Shown here: positions 2,222 to 20,552 of the stretch, piece by piece
Position numbering within the stretch: the stretch's first letter is position 1
How the letters are laid out: every line of letters starts with the position of its first letter
Virus record (IMG/VR): IMGVR_UViG_3300034375_004191
Location: 1-22,587 of that record
Origin: a virus
Length of the DNA stretch: 22,587 bases
Direction: 5' to 3' (one strand)
Made by a program: the position numbers and the translations under genes
The notes under the pieces: generated by a model
The model's input: only the letters and a program-made list of their open reading frames with translations
Told to the model about the DNA's origin: nothing
Database searches by the model: none

Positions 2222-5070
2222 TGGCGACTCAAACTTATCAATACACAGCACCGGACGGTACTATTTATGACATTGATGGTCCTGTAGGCGCAACACCTGC
2301 TCAAGTAAAAGCTCAAGGAGATAAGCTGTTTGCTCAGCAGAATCAACCGTCTGAGCAACCTCAAGTAGAAACACAAGTCTACGAATATCAAGCCCCTGAT
2401 GGGAATGTTTATAACCTTGACGGTCCTGTAGGAGCTAATCCAGACGAAGTAAAAGCTAAAGGAGATGAACTATATCAGCAGATGTTAAATGCTCCTGTAG
2501 CTGCTGACAGTGCTTTTGAATGGTTTGGAGAGTCTGCACAAAGAGGATTTACTACTGGTTTGGCTATAGGTGAGTCTTTAATTGACACGTTATTGATTGA
2601 TCCTTTTGTCAAAAGACCTTATGAACTAATTAAAGCTCAGGTGACAGGAGAAGCTGCACCAGAATATGCAGGAGGTTTTGGAGGTATCGTTGATCGTTTC
2701 AAAGGACATTATCAGAAAAACTTTGAGGTTCTGAGTCCTTATACAGGCGTAGACGCTAATATGGCACTACCTGAAAACTCTGGTTATATAACTAGAGTAG
2801 TAGGTAAAGGTATTGAAGTAGCAGCAGATCCTTTAAATTATGTAGGCGCAGGAGTTATAAAAACAGCAGCTACTTTGGGTGTCAAAGCAGCAGCTAAACA
2901 GACAGCTAAAGAAGCTCCTACTATGTTTAAGTTAGGTGTTTTTGCTGAAACAGGCGGAGAAATTGGAGAAGATATTGAAGCAGCTTTTTCAAAAGACGGT
3001 GAAACTTCTGGGAAAGGTAAATTAATCGGTTCTTTGGTAGGTGGCGGTACGTCCATAGCTACAACAGGAATGTTTAGAACAACTGCTCAATCAACTAAAA
3101 ACACTGTTGGTCAAATATGGCAAAAGTATAAAGACGTTAAACAAAACCCAGATGCAGCAGTTAAAAGTTACTCTACTGGCAGTGCTAAGAGATTGTTAGA
3201 GTACGCTAAGAGTGAAAGAAATCTAGGCGAATTTGAACAAATAACAAAAGACTTCAAAGATATCGCTAAAGTTCTAGGAGAAGAAAATTTCCCTTTGTTA
3301 GTCAGTATGGCTGACAATGCTGTGTTGCGTAGTCAAGTAGTAAAAAGAGCTAAAGAAAACCCAGCATTTAGACAACAAGTGGATGCAGAGATAACAAGAT
3401 TGTCTGAGCTTATAGATGACAAGGCTATTAGTATTTTTGGTCCTCAGTATGCTCAATTCAAGATTTCACTTAGTCCTGAACTAGCAGCACAACAAGCTAA
3501 AAGAGCAGAGAGTATAAGAGACATCGATAACAAAATCCAAGAGTTGTCTTTTAAATATGAACTAAGTGAGGATAAAGCAACAATAGGAACGGCTATTGAA
3601 AAGTTAGTTGAGGCTAAGAAAAAGATAGCTATGGATGAGCGAAAAGTTGATTATGAAGCTCTGTTAGCGGAAGCAAAGAAACGCGGTATTAGAATGTCTA
3701 AGTCTAGTGTGAGAGACGTTTATAACTTTGTTGTTGCTAATAAGTTAAGAGATATCTTTGGTAAGACTACTTCTGTGGATAAGGACATTATGAAGTATTG
3801 GGGTCCACAGGAAAGTTTAGGAGGTGAGTTTGCATCAGTTAGTTTTGCTCAGGTTGAAAGTCTTAAGAGAGCAATTAATGAAGGGCTTAGAGCTTATAAG
3901 CCAGGGACAAACGAGTTTAGAAAGTTGACTCAATTAGATAGCGTCTTGGACGAAGCTAGAAAGTCTTTTAGAGGTGACTTTGATAAACGACTGCGTGATC
4001 TAGACACACTGTACTATCAAAAAATTGGTTTGCCTTTCGGTGAGCGAGGCATTAAAGAATTAAGTTCTAAAGGGTATGCAGAGCAGGTAGCTCCTGTTAT
4101 TGTCAAAAATGCAGAAGCACTTGATGACTTTTTAGGTGTAGCTGGTGAAGAAGGTTTTGATATTGCTAGAAGAGCTTTAATATCTGAAATGTATCCTAAA
4201 GTATTTAAAGATGGTGTTTTAGATCCTAGAGCTTTTAAGCGGTACATGATTCAAAAGTCAGAAGTTATTGACAGAATCCCTAATATGAGAAAAGAACTAA
4301 CAGTTCTTCAAGCAGACGATGCAGCTTTAAAACTAGAACTAAAAGCTCTAGATGATGCTAAAAAAGCATTTGATGCTAAAGTAGCTGATAACTATTTACT
4401 AAGTAATCCTGAACTAGGTCCAGACTATGCTCGCATTGTTCAAGGGATGTTGAATGACAGAAACAACATTACCAAGTTCTTTGATAACCTAAAAGACGTA
4501 ACACCGCAAGCACAGCAAAGTATCAGAAATACTATAAGGGCTGAGTTGTTCTTTAAGGCTCGTAATTCTTCACAAGGTGCTGTTGCATTTCTAACAAGCG
4601 CAAAGAACAAAGCAATAGTAGATAAAATCTTTGGTCCTAAATATGCAGATCAAGTCAAACAACTAGCAAAACTAAGTGATACTTTGAAGATTGCGGATGT
4701 TAGGGATGTGCCTGGTCTAGTTACAAGAGAAGAGCTAGATATGTTAGCTAGAATAGCTCCTGGTTTAGATGTTCCTTATATCGCTTCAACACTTAGAGAT
4801 CGTATATCTTCTAACACTCAAAAGGTCATTAGAATACTTAGTCGTTTTCAGGTCCAAAAAGGCAAGACAGCGACAGACAAAGCGATTGAAGACTTATTGC
4901 TTGATCCAGCAGGTATAGCAAAACTAGAACAAGTGTTGAAAGAAACAAAAGCATTTGACTTTACTATTAAAAAACCTACAGACATAAAGACCATAATAGG
5001 TACGTTTACAGAACTACTACCAAGTTATTTTTACACATCAGCTAAAGTAGGATTACAAGAGGAAGAGTAA
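2221..5070 (+). CDS. Large internal virion protein with tandem N-terminal repeats (949 aa)
   Basis: The longest gene in the window. Residues about 7-40 and 55-88 are two copies of a roughly 34-residue module with the pattern YxAPDGxxYxxDGPVGAxPxxVKAxGDxL, a module I recall at the N-termini of various phage virion proteins. Residues about 200-290 hold small-residue-rich, membrane-prone helices. The rest is long, charged and coiled-coil rich (for example LDDAKKAFDAKVAD). Size and position fit the T7 gp16 slot, but the lytic-transglycosylase-like domain is not here; it lies in the separate gene at 6011. Both ends overlap neighbours as TAATG. The virion role is inferred from context. Confidence 0.65.
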   Translation: MATQTYQYTAPDGTIYDIDGPVGATPAQVKAQGDKLFAQQNQPSEQPQVETQVYEYQAPDGNVYNLDGPVGANPDEVKAKGDELYQQMLNAPVAADSAFEWFGESAQRGFTTGLAIGESLIDTLLIDPFVKRPYELIKAQVTGEAAPEYAGGFGGIVDRFKGHYQKNFEVLSPYTGVDANMALPENSGYITRVVGKGIEVAADPLNYVGAGVIKTAATLGVKAAAKQTAKEAPTMFKLGVFAETGGEIGEDIEAAFSKDGETSGKGKLIGSLVGGGTSIATTGMFRTTAQSTKNTVGQIWQKYKDVKQNPDAAVKSYSTGSAKRLLEYAKSERNLGEFEQITKDFKDIAKVLGEENFPLLVSMADNAVLRSQVVKRAKENPAFRQQVDAEITRLSELIDDKAISIFGPQYAQFKISLSPELAAQQAKRAESIRDIDNKIQELSFKYELSEDKATIGTAIEKLVEAKKKIAMDERKVDYEALLAEAKKRGIRMSKSSVRDVYNFVVANKLRDIFGKTTSVDKDIMKYWGPQESLGGEFASVSFAQVESLKRAINEGLRAYKPGTNEFRKLTQLDSVLDEARKSFRGDFDKRLRDLDTLYYQKIGLPFGERGIKELSSKGYAEQVAPVIVKNAEALDDFLGVAGEEGFDIARRALISEMYPKVFKDGVLDPRAFKRYMIQKSEVIDRIPNMRKELTVLQADDAALKLELKALDDAKKAFDAKVADNYLLSNPELGPDYARIVQGMLNDRNNITKFFDNLKDVTPQAQQSIRNTIRAELFFKARNSSQGAVAFLTSAKNKAIVDKIFGPKYADQVKQLAKLSDTLKIADVRDVPGLVTREELDMLARIAPGLDVPYIASTLRDRISSNTQKVIRILSRFQVQKGKTATDKAIEDLLLDPAGIAKLEQVLKETKAFDFTIKKPTDIKTIIGTFTELLPSYFYTSAKVGLQEEE

Positions 5071-9169: not shown

Positions 9170-9434
9170 GTTTTTCCATGTCCTCTATTTCGATTACTGC
9201 CAATGTAGCATAACCTGAGATGTCACGCCACGAATCGTCATAGTAGCAATTACCGTTCAGTATCCTAGCCATCTTGTTAGCAATCAGATCAAGACTCTCT
9301 CGCATGAACGCTGGCATGAACTTGTAGTTCGGAGAGTCCTGCATGATCTTCTTGATGTCCTGACTAATCTGACTCACGTTCTGGTACTTACCGTATTGTC
9401 CTTCTCTAGCGTCGAGTATCTCGTTTGTTTCCAT
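9147..9434 (-). CDS. Conserved phage protein, DUF6378-like (95 aa)
   Basis: The sequence ILDAREGQYGKY followed by MRESLDLIANKMARILNG and ILNGNCYYDDSWRDISGYATL matches what I recall of DUF6378, a small helical phage protein that pairs with nucleotide-metabolism and replication genes. The conserved DSWRDISGYA stretch resembles all-alpha NTP-pyrophosphohydrolase-like helices, but I do not see the full acidic metal motif, so enzymatic function is not claimed. It overlaps the metallophosphoesterase by 29 nt and the next small gene by 23 nt, so it is embedded in the replication operon. Confidence 0.75.
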   Translation of the reverse strand: METNEILDAREGQYGKYQNVSQISQDIKKIMQDSPNYKFMPAFMRESLDLIANKMARILNGNCYYDDSWRDISGYATLAVIEIEDMEKHDTPDTP

Positions 9435-10188
9435 ATTTATTCCTTAAATAAGTCAGACTAATTGGCATCTCATCAAAGCTACCGTTGTTTACTTCATTTA
9501 ACATCCAGATACCTGACCAGCTACCATTAGTCTGAGGTGTCAAGTAGTCCTCATCGTGTTGGTAGCAAATACCTGCAAAGATACCAGTGATTCTAGTGTC
9601 ATCAGCCCTCTTGCTAAACGCTATCGCTCGATCTTGAACGTGTCCCATAATACAACTCATGTGTTTCTTCTGTAGTAGTAGACCTGGGTTAGTAACTGAT
9701 CTACCCATAACACCTGATGTAAAGTAGTGACTGTAGGCAATGTTATCTATGACCTTGACATCTAAGAAATCTTGTACTTCCCAACCATACTTACTGAGGT
9801 TAAAGTCGTTGTATCCTATCAGACCTTCTAGCTTCCTATCAGACTCAATAGCTCTTTGAATCCTTTGTTCATGATTCCCAATAAGAAAGACAAGTTTAGG
9901 TTTCCACGATTTCTTTCTGTTTCTTTTTAGTCTGTTGACTTCTGCAACAATAGGCTTCATTAATTTATCCATTGCTATGTTGCCTGCAATGATGTCGTTG
10001 TTGTATGTCCTACCTTCAAAGGACTTTTTACCAACATCATAGATTGACAGACTTGGCATATCCCAATGATCTCCTAGATGGACAATAACATCAGGCTTCT
10101 TCTCTGCTGCATACTTACCTACCCACTCTAAATGTCCATTAGGATAACCAGGTTTACATTGGGTATCAGGTATTACTAGGTGTCTCAT
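9406..10188 (-). CDS. Calcineurin-like metallophosphoesterase (260 aa)
   Basis: Shows the ordered dimetal motifs of the superfamily: IPDTQ (D8, Q10), HLGDHWD (D40, H41, D43), IGNHE (104-107), SHYF (H154) and GHVQ (182-185). It probably hydrolyses phosphomonoesters or diesters in the cytoplasm; the substrate cannot be told from the sequence. Relatives occur in replication clusters of many podoviruses, sometimes annotated as phosphatases or SbcD-like nucleases, but there is no SbcC partner here. It overlaps the nuclease gene by 23 nt upstream and the DUF6378-like gene by 29 nt downstream. Confidence 0.88.
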   Translation of the reverse strand: MRHLVIPDTQCKPGYPNGHLEWVGKYAAEKKPDVIVHLGDHWDMPSLSIYDVGKKSFEGRTYNNDIIAGNIAMDKLMKPIVAEVNRLKRNRKKSWKPKLVFLIGNHEQRIQRAIESDRKLEGLIGYNDFNLSKYGWEVQDFLDVKVIDNIAYSHYFTSGVMGRSVTNPGLLLQKKHMSCIMGHVQDRAIAFSKRADDTRITGIFAGICYQHDEDYLTPQTNGSWSGIWMLNEVNNGSFDEMPISLTYLRNKYGNKRDTRR

Positions 10189-10525
10189 GCTGTTCCTTTA
10201 ACAGTTGTATGAAGTATTCTGCATCAATTACGACCAGTGGTTTAGAGTGATTCTGTTTGACAACTAGGACAGGTTCTCTATCTTCAGGGCAGTTGTCTGA
10301 GGCTTGTGAGTAGAAGGCATACACAGCAATAGAGTTTCTAGACTTACACTCTACTGATATACCTAAAGTATCTCCTGCCTTTTGAGAAAACAAAATGTCT
10401 TCTCCTCCTGCACCCATGCTAGTAGACCTTACGTCTTCCTTAGAAAAGGCAAACGTGTCAATGATCTTGTCTCTAAACCATTGCTGTAGTTTTCGACCTT
10501 TAGCTTTTGCGCTTTGGGTTTTGAT
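10166..10525 (-). CDS. PD-(D/E)XK-type phage nuclease with apparent ATC start (119 aa)
   Basis: The frame is open back to a stop at 10541-10543. Starting at ATC (10525-10523) the product reads M/I-KTQSAKAKGRKLQQWFRD, then DVRSTSMGAGGEDI (E42/D43) and SVECKSR (E59, K61), the acid...ExK pattern of PD-(D/E)XK enzymes. I recall phage nucleases or Holliday-junction-resolvase-like proteins starting MKTQSAKAKGR. A perfect AAGGAGG (10537-10531) lies 5 nt before the ATC, and no in-frame ATG, GTG, TTG or CTG exists before ATG 10417, which would delete the conserved first 36 residues. It lies between exonuclease and phosphoesterase genes. The role in branch or end processing is inferred. Confidence 0.8.
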   Translation of the reverse strand: MKTQSAKAKGRKLQQWFRDKIIDTFAFSKEDVRSTSMGAGGEDILFSQKAGDTLGISVECKSRNSIAVYAFYSQASDNCPEDREPVLVVKQNHSKPLVVIDAEYFIQLLKEQHETPSNT

Positions 10526-10535
10526 TGCTTCCTCC

Positions 10536-11240
10536 TTAAGTTAACTTTGGAGTCCAGATTTCCCCAGCTTTCCTACGAATCCATAGTAGCTGTGCTCGTT
10601 CAGTTAGTAACTCAAGGTTATCCTCATACGCCTGTAATACGGCAGCGAATAATTGTCTCTCGTTCTGACATTCCTCCAGTAATTTACCTGCTTTGACTGG
10701 ACCAACACCTTTTAACCCAGGTATGTTATCCACTCGATCGCCAGTAAGTATCTGAAGGTAAAAGTTCTTGATGGCTTCCTTCTCAGTAATGTAATAAAGA
10801 TTGTCCTTGACAAAGTTGTAGTGCCATCCCCTCAACATATCAAGGTCTTTATCAAGCGACATAATGCAAAAGGCACCTGCCCTCATTTGATAGGCAGCTA
10901 TACCAATTGCATCATCCGCTTCCTCACCTTCAACTAACTCAAAGCCCCACTTCTCAGTGAGGTAGTTACGCAGAGTCTCATAATGATTAGGCTTTCTAGC
11001 GTCACTACGATTCCCTTTGTACTCTTTCTCGTTAGCTATCTTATATCGGAAGTTGGATCGACCAGTGATGTAACCAGAGTAGTCATCAACATAGGTAGGT
11101 GAGATTAAACCCTCAATGTAATTACCCATGCGACTAACTGCAAACTTCTCATCGTCATCATCACTAGCGAATCCAATCCGATACACTAGGATATCACCGT
11201 CTATCAGTGCAGTTGCATTGTTGAGAGACGGCGCACCCAT
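10536..11240 (-). CDS. 5'-3' exonuclease, FEN/T7 gp6-like (234 aa)
   Basis: Removes RNA primers and degrades DNA 5' ends during replication or recombination. The motifs are in order: ALIDGDILVYR (D14, D16), YKGNR (74-78), EGEEADDAIG (104-113), SLDKDLD (D130, D132), and the helix-3-turn-helix TGDRVDNIPGLKGVGPVKAG (166-185) with metal ligands D168 and D171. The length is short for Pol I-type nucleases but typical of stand-alone phage enzymes. It lies one base after the SSB gene. Its stop codon overlaps the Shine-Dalgarno of the nuclease downstream. Confidence 0.9.
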   Translation of the reverse strand: MGAPSLNNATALIDGDILVYRIGFASDDDDEKFAVSRMGNYIEGLISPTYVDDYSGYITGRSNFRYKIANEKEYKGNRSDARKPNHYETLRNYLTEKWGFELVEGEEADDAIGIAAYQMRAGAFCIMSLDKDLDMLRGWHYNFVKDNLYYITEKEAIKNFYLQILTGDRVDNIPGLKGVGPVKAGKLLEECQNERQLFAAVLQAYEDNLELLTERAQLLWIRRKAGEIWTPKLT

Positions 11241-13294: not shown

Positions 13295-13431
13295 GTCTGT
13301 AAGTATAATCCAAAGTTACCTAAACAAAAACCTACAAAAGTTATTGCCATCGCAGTTTGTCCTTTAGTAAAGAGATCAATAGCTATGATTAAATATACCA
13401 CAGCTATAACTAATATTAACCAGCTTGACAT
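13291..13431 (-). CDS. Two-span membrane micro-protein between methyltransferase and polymerase (46 aa)
   Basis: Reads MSSWLILVIAVVYLIIAIDL, then FTKGQ, then a second hydrophobic run AMAITFVGFCLGNFGLYLQT: two membrane helices joined by a short charged turn. The start lies 16 nt inside the 3' end of the methyltransferase gene and the stop overlaps the polymerase ATG (ATGA), so it is probably translated with both. Function unknown; a membrane anchor, toxin-like or superinfection-type role is possible but unsupported. Confidence 0.72.
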   Translation of the reverse strand: MSSWLILVIAVVYLIIAIDLFTKGQTAMAITFVGFCLGNFGLYLQT

Positions 13432-14348
13432 ATCGCTCTGCCTATTAGTTCTGGTATCTGAGGAACAACTGCATTGCCTAGTTGTTTAAGTCTGTCCACC
13501 CTACCGGAAACCCCATAAGCCACTCTACCCACATCGGGTTCAACTGCCCACCAGCATGAGTAGCTAGCGTCTTGGAGTTCCTTGCTAATTCTGCTGGTGA
13601 TCTGCCATTGTCCTTGTAGTCCCTCGCTGTTGGAGTTGGAAACATTTCTCTCGCTACTGCTACTTCCAAGTTCTTGTGCGGATGGCTTGCTACTTTCGGA
13701 GTAAGTGTTGTTGCCATCGCTGAGTTTGCCCTGGGAGTAGGCCACAGTTTCGGATGTCTCACTTGATCCTGAAGTCTCAGTTGTCTCTGATGTCCTGACT
13801 CTCTCTTCCAGTTCCCCTTCGCCATCTCTTCCAAGACTTCCTGTGATACTGTCCCGCCTTGTACTGTCTCTGGGGTACGCCACAATCCAGATTCTGTCCC
13901 GTCTGTGAGGCGCACCAATACTGGCAGCGGTGATACAATGCCACTCCGCATCATACCCGATCTCAGAGATTTCCCTGAGCACTTGATCCAGTCCCCTAGA
14001 TCGAAGGGCTGAGACGTTTTCAATGATTGCGTATTTCGGTTTGATTTCTTCAATGAGCCTTTTGAACTCTGACCAGAGTCCTGATCTTTTGCCTTCAAGT
14101 CCTGCTCCTTTACCTGCGAGACTGATGTCCTGACATGGGAACCCTCCGCAAATAACGTCAACTGTTTCTTCAATGTCTTCTCCTTTAAGTGTTGATACAT
14201 CTTCAAATATAGGCACATTAGGCCAGTGCTTTTTTAATACCTGTTGACATTTCTTATCTACTTCACAGAAAGCAACAGTCTTCATACCTGCACGTTCTAG
14301 TCCTAAACTAAACCCGCCAATACCGCTAAACAAATCAAGCACATTCAT
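13416..14348 (-). CDS. dcm: DNA C5-cytosine methyltransferase (310 aa)
   Basis: Transfers a methyl group from SAM to cytosine C5 in phage DNA, presumably against host restriction. Motif I is DLFSGIGGFSLGLE (5-18), motif IV GGFPCQDIS with catalytic C72, motif VI IIENVS (N111), motif VIII APHRRDRIW (147-154), and motif X RVDRLKQLGNAVVPQIPELIG (283-303). Residues about 160-265, where the target-recognition domain should be, are unusually Ser/Thr/Glu-rich and low in complexity. That region, and most of the gene, is also open in the +1 frame. ATG overlaps the primase-helicase stop (ATGA). No cognate restriction enzyme is visible. Confidence 0.93.
   Translation of the reverse strand: MNVLDLFSGIGGFSLGLERAGMKTVAFCEVDKKCQQVLKKHWPNVPIFEDVSTLKGEDIEETVDVICGGFPCQDISLAGKGAGLEGKRSGLWSEFKRLIEEIKPKYAIIENVSALRSRGLDQVLREISEIGYDAEWHCITAASIGAPHRRDRIWIVAYPRDSTRRDSITGSLGRDGEGELEERVRTSETTETSGSSETSETVAYSQGKLSDGNNTYSESSKPSAQELGSSSSERNVSNSNSEGLQGQWQITSRISKELQDASYSCWWAVEPDVGRVAYGVSGRVDRLKQLGNAVVPQIPELIGRAICQAG
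13478..14173 (-). CDS. Gene nested in the methyltransferase gene, +1 frame (231 aa)
   Basis: Open from TTG 14173 to 13478, wholly inside the methyltransferase gene. AAAGGAG sits 6 nt before the TTG, giving MKKQLTLFAEGSHVRTS; in-frame ATGs at 14218 and 14200 have no such site. Visible pieces are SLKTSQ (50-55), SGMMRSG (72-78), LWRTP (97-101), LWPTPRAN (143-150), FPTPTARDYKDNG (178-190) and LNPMWVEWLMGFPVGWTDL (211-229). From memory these same elements occur, in this order, in many phage and bacterial proteins linked to Dcm-type methyltransferases and of unknown function. The host frame is low-complexity opposite the motif-rich part, suggesting the nested frame is the constrained one. Expression is not proven. 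Confidence 0.65.
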   Translation of the reverse strand: MKKQLTLFAEGSHVRTSVSQVKEQDLKAKDQDSGQSSKGSLKKSNRNTQSLKTSQPFDLGDWIKCSGKSLRSGMMRSGIVSPLPVLVRLTDGTESGLWRTPETVQGGTVSQEVLEEMAKGNWKRESGHQRQLRLQDQVRHPKLWPTPRANSAMATTLTPKVASHPHKNLEVAVAREMFPTPTARDYKDNGRSPAELARNSKTLATHAGGQLNPMWVEWLMGFPVGWTDLNN

Positions 14349-20138: not shown

Positions 20139-20552
20139 TTGTCCCTTGAAGACCCTAAGCCTGTAAAGAGAGGGCGAGGTAGACCTAGAAAAACTGAAGT
20201 AGAAGCAAAAAAGAAACGAAATAAGGTTGGACGTCCACCAGGAGAAGCCGCGAGGATCAAAGAGTTTCATGCTAGGTTGTTAGCAACAAGTGGTGAGACA
20301 GTAATCAATACGATTATTAAGAAAGCACTCGATGACGATGACAAAGATCAGGTAGCTTGTCTTAAAATGTGTATTGACAGGGTGCTTCCGATGTCTTATT
20401 TTGAAAAGGACAAGGATGCTAGAAGAGGTAATGTATCTATTCAGATTTCAATGGTTGGGGATGCGAAAGCAATTGTGGATCAGACAGAAGAGGAAGAACA
20501 AGATTATCAAGATGTTGAATTCGAGACGATAGATGTCCGATCTGAAGATTAA
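20139..20552 (+). CDS. terS: Small terminase subunit-like protein with AT-hooks (137 aa)
   Basis: Recognises phage DNA for packaging and loads the large subunit. Residues about 8-20 (KRGRGRPRKTE) and 28-35 (KVGRPPGEA) are two AT-hook-like GRP motifs for minor-groove binding. A helical core (VINTIIKKALDDDDKDQVACLKMCIDRVLPM) follows in two pieces, and the acidic tail EEEEQDYQDVEFETIDV probably contacts the large subunit. The start is TTG 20139 with AAAGGA 8 nt upstream; the preceding in-frame ATT is at better spacing (5 nt), and there is no ATG. It overlaps terL by 20 nt. Assignment rests on AT-hooks and position. Confidence 0.75.
   Translation: MSLEDPKPVKRGRGRPRKTEVEAKKKRNKVGRPPGEAARIKEFHARLLATSGETVINTIIKKALDDDDKDQVACLKMCIDRVLPMSYFEKDKDARRGNVSIQISMVGDAKAIVDQTEEEEQDYQDVEFETIDVRSED

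Follow-up and report, generated by a model that had tools for sequence, protein, structure and literature searches.

Comparison of a predicted phage nuclease gene with its relatives indicates that it would be translated from an AUC codon, and that AUC or AUU was very probably imposed on this gene by a small gene overlapping it in the +1 frame. In the genome analyzed here the small gene has been deleted, leaving the ATC as a relic. This genome (the window) is the 22,587-base record of an uncultivated virus, a marine tailed phage whose polymerase is nearest to those of pelagiphages HTVC103P/104P (50% identity). The first-pass annotation of the window noted the ATC but missed its probable cause, a +1-frame overlapping gene that is present in most relatives.

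The nuclease locus

On the minus strand of the window, a 5'-3' exonuclease gene (10536-11240; ORF list, Pfam, and PHROG) is followed by the nuclease gene (10166-10525; 119 codons plus stop) and by a metallophosphoesterase gene (9406-10188; ORF list, Pfam, and PHROG) that overlaps the nuclease gene end. The exonuclease gene ends in CCA AAG TTA ACT TAA, and its TAA (10538-10536) overlaps the Shine-Dalgarno (SD) sequence of the nuclease gene. Scans for promoters and terminators gave no signal exceeding that of shuffled sequences.

The nuclease matches the phrog_244 profile, 'RusA-like Holliday junction resolvase', over residues 3-115 of 119 (E 7.9e-18). The Pfam family PDDEXK_15 (PF24608) scores 20.2 bits, under the gathering cut-off of 27, so we do not assign the protein to PF24608. 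The PDDEXK-type motifs (GGED and ECK) are intact, with G41, D43, E59, C60, and K61 invariant among 30 relatives, and no sequence relative was found in the PDB. We thus predict a resolvase-like nuclease of the PDDEXK/PHROG_244 type.

Upstream, the nuclease frame is closed by an in-frame TAA (10543-10541, minus strand), after which it reads CTT AAG GAG GAA GCA ATC AAA ACC CAA. The first-pass annotation had reported an AAGGAGG 5 nt before the ATC and no NTG codon until Met37, and we see both on the minus strand: the SD lies at 10537-10531 and the ATC at 10525-10523, separated by the spacer AAGCA. None of the five codons between the TAA and the ATC is an NTG, and ATG, GTG, TTG, and CTG are all absent from the frame between the upstream stop and Met37; their first occurrences after the ATC are at codons 37 (ATG, 10417-10415), 45 (TTG), 68 (GTG), and 97 (CTG). 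The 17-mer preceding the ATC forms an anti-SD duplex of -12.1 kcal/mol, a value reached by roughly one random minus-strand 17-mer in 3000; this SD is the strongest among the 14 minus-strand gene starts compared within the window. RNA structure around the start is unexceptional (z -0.42). The protein N-terminus, described earlier as conserved and open upstream of the first ATG, indeed contains ten residues across codons 5-34 that are invariant in 30 diverse relatives (S5, A6, K7, K9, G10, R11, Q14, R18, D31, and S34).

Two other loci in the window have unusual coding features. A C-5 cytosine methylase gene (13416-14348, minus strand; Pfam DNA_methylase, E 6e-53) contains a 246-codon ORF (13478-14218) in a second same-strand frame. 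Over 231 residues this ORF matches phrog_1008, a methyltransferase family distinct from the first (E 1.7e-25), so that about 740 nt are coding in two frames. A TTG-started ORF with an AT-hook motif (20139-20552, plus strand) lies immediately 5' of the terminase large subunit gene and is a candidate small terminase.

The start codon across relatives

A protein search of IMG/VR with the nuclease leaves codon 1 free to vary. Codon 1 could be read in 79 close loci and is ATC in 70 and ATT in 9, with no other codon found. A second scan, for ATN followed by the conserved AAAACCCAAAGYGCRAAAGC, returned at least 95 ATC, at least 23 ATT, and at least one ATG (locus L273) among the matches listed, i.e., ATC or ATT in 118 of the 119. 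The residue preceding codon 1 varies within this clade (A, T, V, D, R, Q, or N), whereas the sequence is fixed from codon 1 onward.

The earlier expectation that relatives would have ATG here is correct for distant relatives and incorrect for close ones. When homologs are aligned, position 1 is Met in the distant relatives: in cyanophages, HTVC008M, and T5S1 the ATG falls exactly on codon 1 (MK[TP]QSAKAKGR). Freshwater relatives have TTG at codon 1, while in the roseophages CRP and related phages the start, ATG or GTG, stands two codons upstream of an Ile at the codon 1 position. The roseophage type of upstream start is absent from the window clade, and for the window gene an ATG there was rejected, the codon at that position being GAA.

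With a single exception, the 93 distinct sequences share GGA at bases -10 to -8 of the SD. The mean anti-SD duplex is -8.7 kcal/mol in the clade, compared with -4.2 in relatives with NTG (ATG or TTG) at codon 1 and -2.5 in those starting upstream (ATG or GTG); the strong SDs of the clade apparently compensate for a non-canonical start. Three sequence features expected of such a start are found here: no usable in-frame NTG, a conserved codon, and a strong, well-spaced SD. Together with the ATG of distant relatives at the same codon, the ATC or ATT shared by all 79 close relatives, and the lack of any other well-placed SD, they favor the earlier suggestion that AUC initiates translation, and we infer that the AUC at 10525-10523 is the nuclease start, which would then function in vivo.

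At codon 1, ATT or ATC is also found in a separate small group of loci (L246, L247, L248, and L249). In these the frame continues upstream as an open, lysine-rich N-terminal extension with a GTG about 25 codons upstream, and their nuclease is probably a longer protein.

A small gene overlapping in the +1 frame

Between the exonuclease and nuclease genes, 93 distinct relatives carry a small gene that is in the +1 frame of the nuclease gene and overlaps it by 94 nt. This small gene has about 128 codons (MD[TK]KK...YIEW.DA.SD.GW...HPVLSIGF.V...AI.IA...SN.R.HIPKGWI.KIKR...), and its product has no Pfam match and no relatives in named phages. The protein family, found in loci L005 to L080 (e.g., L006:2711-3097), is uncharacterized and weakly matches phrog_25889 (E 1e-3).

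The reading frame of the small gene bears directly on nuclease codon 1. Codon 2 is AAA, so any NTG at codon 1 creates a TGA in the small-gene frame and ATA creates a TAA, while ATC reads as TCA (Ser) and ATT as TTA (Leu), both open. Accordingly, the third base of codon 1 has changed at least 13 times by parsimony on the nucleotide tree, between C and T and never to A, although 43% of the remaining Ile codons of the clade nuclease genes are ATA. The one change to G is in L273, which lacks the small gene.

The same pattern extends through the overlap. We defined a stop-capable site as an Ile, Leu, or Val codon at which a synonymous codon would create a +1-frame stop. In nuclease codons 2-31 of the 93 distinct overlap-bearing sequences, none of 142 such sites makes a stop. 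Further along these genes, in codons 33-106, 383 of 986 (39%) do, and for codons 2-31 the proportions are 32% and 53% among relatives whose start is configured differently. The small-gene stop itself is at +94 in 93 of 93 of these sequences, formed by nuclease codon 32 (GTA or GTG) before an A. The avoidance of stops, the retention of the terminal stop, and the C/T switching at codon 1 argue that the +1 frame is really used, and that selection would protect the protein tail of the small gene.

Synonymous variation is depressed overall in codons 2-32 relative to codons 33 onward (permutation p 5e-5). This depression is restricted to codons 2-9 and 27-32, with little extra constraint in the middle of the overlap (codons 10-25), and codons 27-30 are low in variation also in group B; the case for the overlap therefore rests on stop avoidance.

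In L006 (~2990-3084) and its relatives, the SD (GGAGAA) can pair with an invariant TTTTCC at nuclease codons 27-28, and this pairing outlasts several one-sided changes. A consensus fold of 15 relatives contained no compensatory pairs.

Relatives outside this arrangement serve as natural controls. No relative with NTG at codon 1 has an upstream +1-frame ORF running past that codon. In the freshwater relatives, which start with TTG, a homologous small gene overlaps in frame 2, in which NTG-AAA is harmless. L273, represented by a single contig, is the one close relative with ATG among the matches listed, and it is without the small gene.

Loss of the small gene in the window lineage

Alignment of the window with L005 and L006 shows that 231 nt of the small gene are missing, with the deletion scar at 10545-10544 (minus strand). 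Relics remain on both sides: the former start reads ATG GAT TCG TAG (MDS*, 10584-10573), and the C-terminal tail persists in the +1 frame at 10540-10429, up to the TAA at 10431-10429. In a tree built from this single gene (~119 columns), the window and L004 are nested among small-gene carriers in a 26-row clade (99/88; the whole clade has 100/100); L273 sits in another branch. The window lineage has since drifted at codons conserved in the overlap (S28 TCC to TCT, D31 GAT to GAC) and has kept the ATC, behind an SD that is now AAGGAGG or AGGGAGG. This persistence is what inertia predicts, and the ATC is now a relic. Because the lineage comprises just two distinct haplotypes, the retention of ATC says little.

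Probable origin and maintenance of the AUC start

We consider it highly likely that the +1-frame overlap is what holds the nuclease on AUC or AUU. The AUC would be decoded by initiator tRNA as formyl-Met, aided by the unusually strong SD. The non-canonical start would have been fixed in an ancestor whose small gene read past the nuclease start to a stop at +94. Only ATC and ATT provide an AUN start while leaving the small gene open, and the clade has accordingly shifted between these two codons alone wherever the overlap exists; ATG, GTG, TTG, CTG, and ATA would each truncate the small gene and would thus be barred. In the window lineage, the 231-nt deletion removed the small gene, and the ATC simply persisted.

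The arrangement probably originated from an ATGA, in which the upstream gene ends on the start codon of the next, as is common in the nuclease family. One G to C change in the ATGA would remove both the stop and the ATG, giving the small gene 32 additional residues and leaving the nuclease with AUC; once the new tail was needed, a return to ATG would be barred. The roseophage sequence ATG GCA ATC would likewise keep the +1 frame open. AUC was therefore not dictated by the overlap alone, and SD placement or history must also contribute.

The availability of that roseophage ATG, two codons upstream and not used by the clade, also favors an alternative in which AUC persists for the benefit of weak, IF3-sensitive initiation, giving low or regulated nuclease levels, with the overlap secondary. 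The non-canonical starts of infC and sigR are regulatory in this way (PMC5472188), and the window lineage retains ATC despite having lost the overlap, although its two haplotypes give this little weight. We nevertheless regard this alternative as improbable. Low expression would favor weak SDs, and those of the clade are much stronger than in relatives starting with ATG, GTG, or TTG; the third base of codon 1 flips freely between C and T yet avoids A and G, precisely the pattern that an open +1 frame requires; and L273 has ATG after loss of the small gene. The SD strengths and L273 likewise argue against the first-pass proposal that AUC keeps nuclease levels low. A combination of the two ideas, in which a start first trapped by the overlap became regulated (IF3-sensitive or coupled to small-gene translation), with a tuned SD and with the SD-TTTTCC pairing as a possible switch, seems to us similarly doubtful.

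The 94-nt overlap with a +1-frame gene in most relatives, with an SD-like stimulator ahead of it, could also suggest that the nuclease is made as a frameshift fusion from the upstream gene and that codon 1 is an ordinary Ile. This is very unlikely, given that the nuclease is intact in the window and in L273, both without a +1-frame upstream gene, that inspection of the required frame revealed no canonical slippery heptamer, that residue -1 is unconserved, and that homologs have ATG exactly at codon 1. Still less probable is a start at Met37 (MGAGGED), the first in-frame ATG and the start of the ORF-caller version (10417-10166): codons 1-36 are conserved as protein in cyanophage, roseophage, and pelagiphage homologs annotated with the longer start, the SD ahead of Met37 is weak (-3.9 kcal/mol in the window, clade mean -2.2), and such a start would drop the conserved SAKxKGRxxQ segment. 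A sequencing error or recent point mutation, as the first-pass annotation had offered, can be set aside, as we found no support for it, the identical nuclease protein occurs with ATC in three other, separate assemblies, and ATC or ATT is clade-wide.

Relation to known systems

Conserved AUU or AUC starts in bacterial-type genes are known from infC, encoding IF3, which starts with AUU in E. coli and ATC in Streptomyces and is subject to regulation through this codon (PMC5472188). That system is an autoregulatory fidelity circuit, whereas here the gene encodes a phage nuclease and the overlapping frame is the best explanation. Similarly, sigR of Streptomyces has a conserved GTC start behind an extensive SD and was long misannotated (PMC5472188); the nuclease resembles it in having a conserved non-canonical start behind a strong SD. 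The weak start of sigR sets protein stoichiometry under IF3, whereas the nuclease codon would be explained by the overlap.

The AUU start of IS911 orfB lies within an overlap with the upstream gene. An SD precedes this AUU, according to work cited in PMC4066793. The upstream frame of IS911 also yields a -1 frameshift fusion, while the nuclease locus has no such site or need and the window, unlike IS911, has no upstream partner frame left. The closest counterparts of the nuclease itself are the PHROG_244 resolvases of cyanophages, HTVC008M, and roseophages CRP, which are homologous, carry the same motifs, and start either at the corresponding codon or two codons before it; they differ in using ATG (GTG in some CRP phages) where the window clade has ATC or ATT. 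In the literature searched we found no phage gene described as confined to AUC or AUU by an overlapping frame, although such absence is not proof.

Starts other than AUG, GUG, and UUG are rarely documented in bacterial-type genes and are mostly ascribed to regulation. The nuclease points to a different cause, accompanied by natural controls, in which the frame of an overlapping gene would decide which start codons are permitted. Gene finders would call this nuclease 36 residues short or miss it, and the locus offers a ready reporter system for the efficiency of AUC initiation with a perfect SD. If our explanation is correct, other +1 overlaps may conceal AUC- or AUU-started genes that gene finders overlook.
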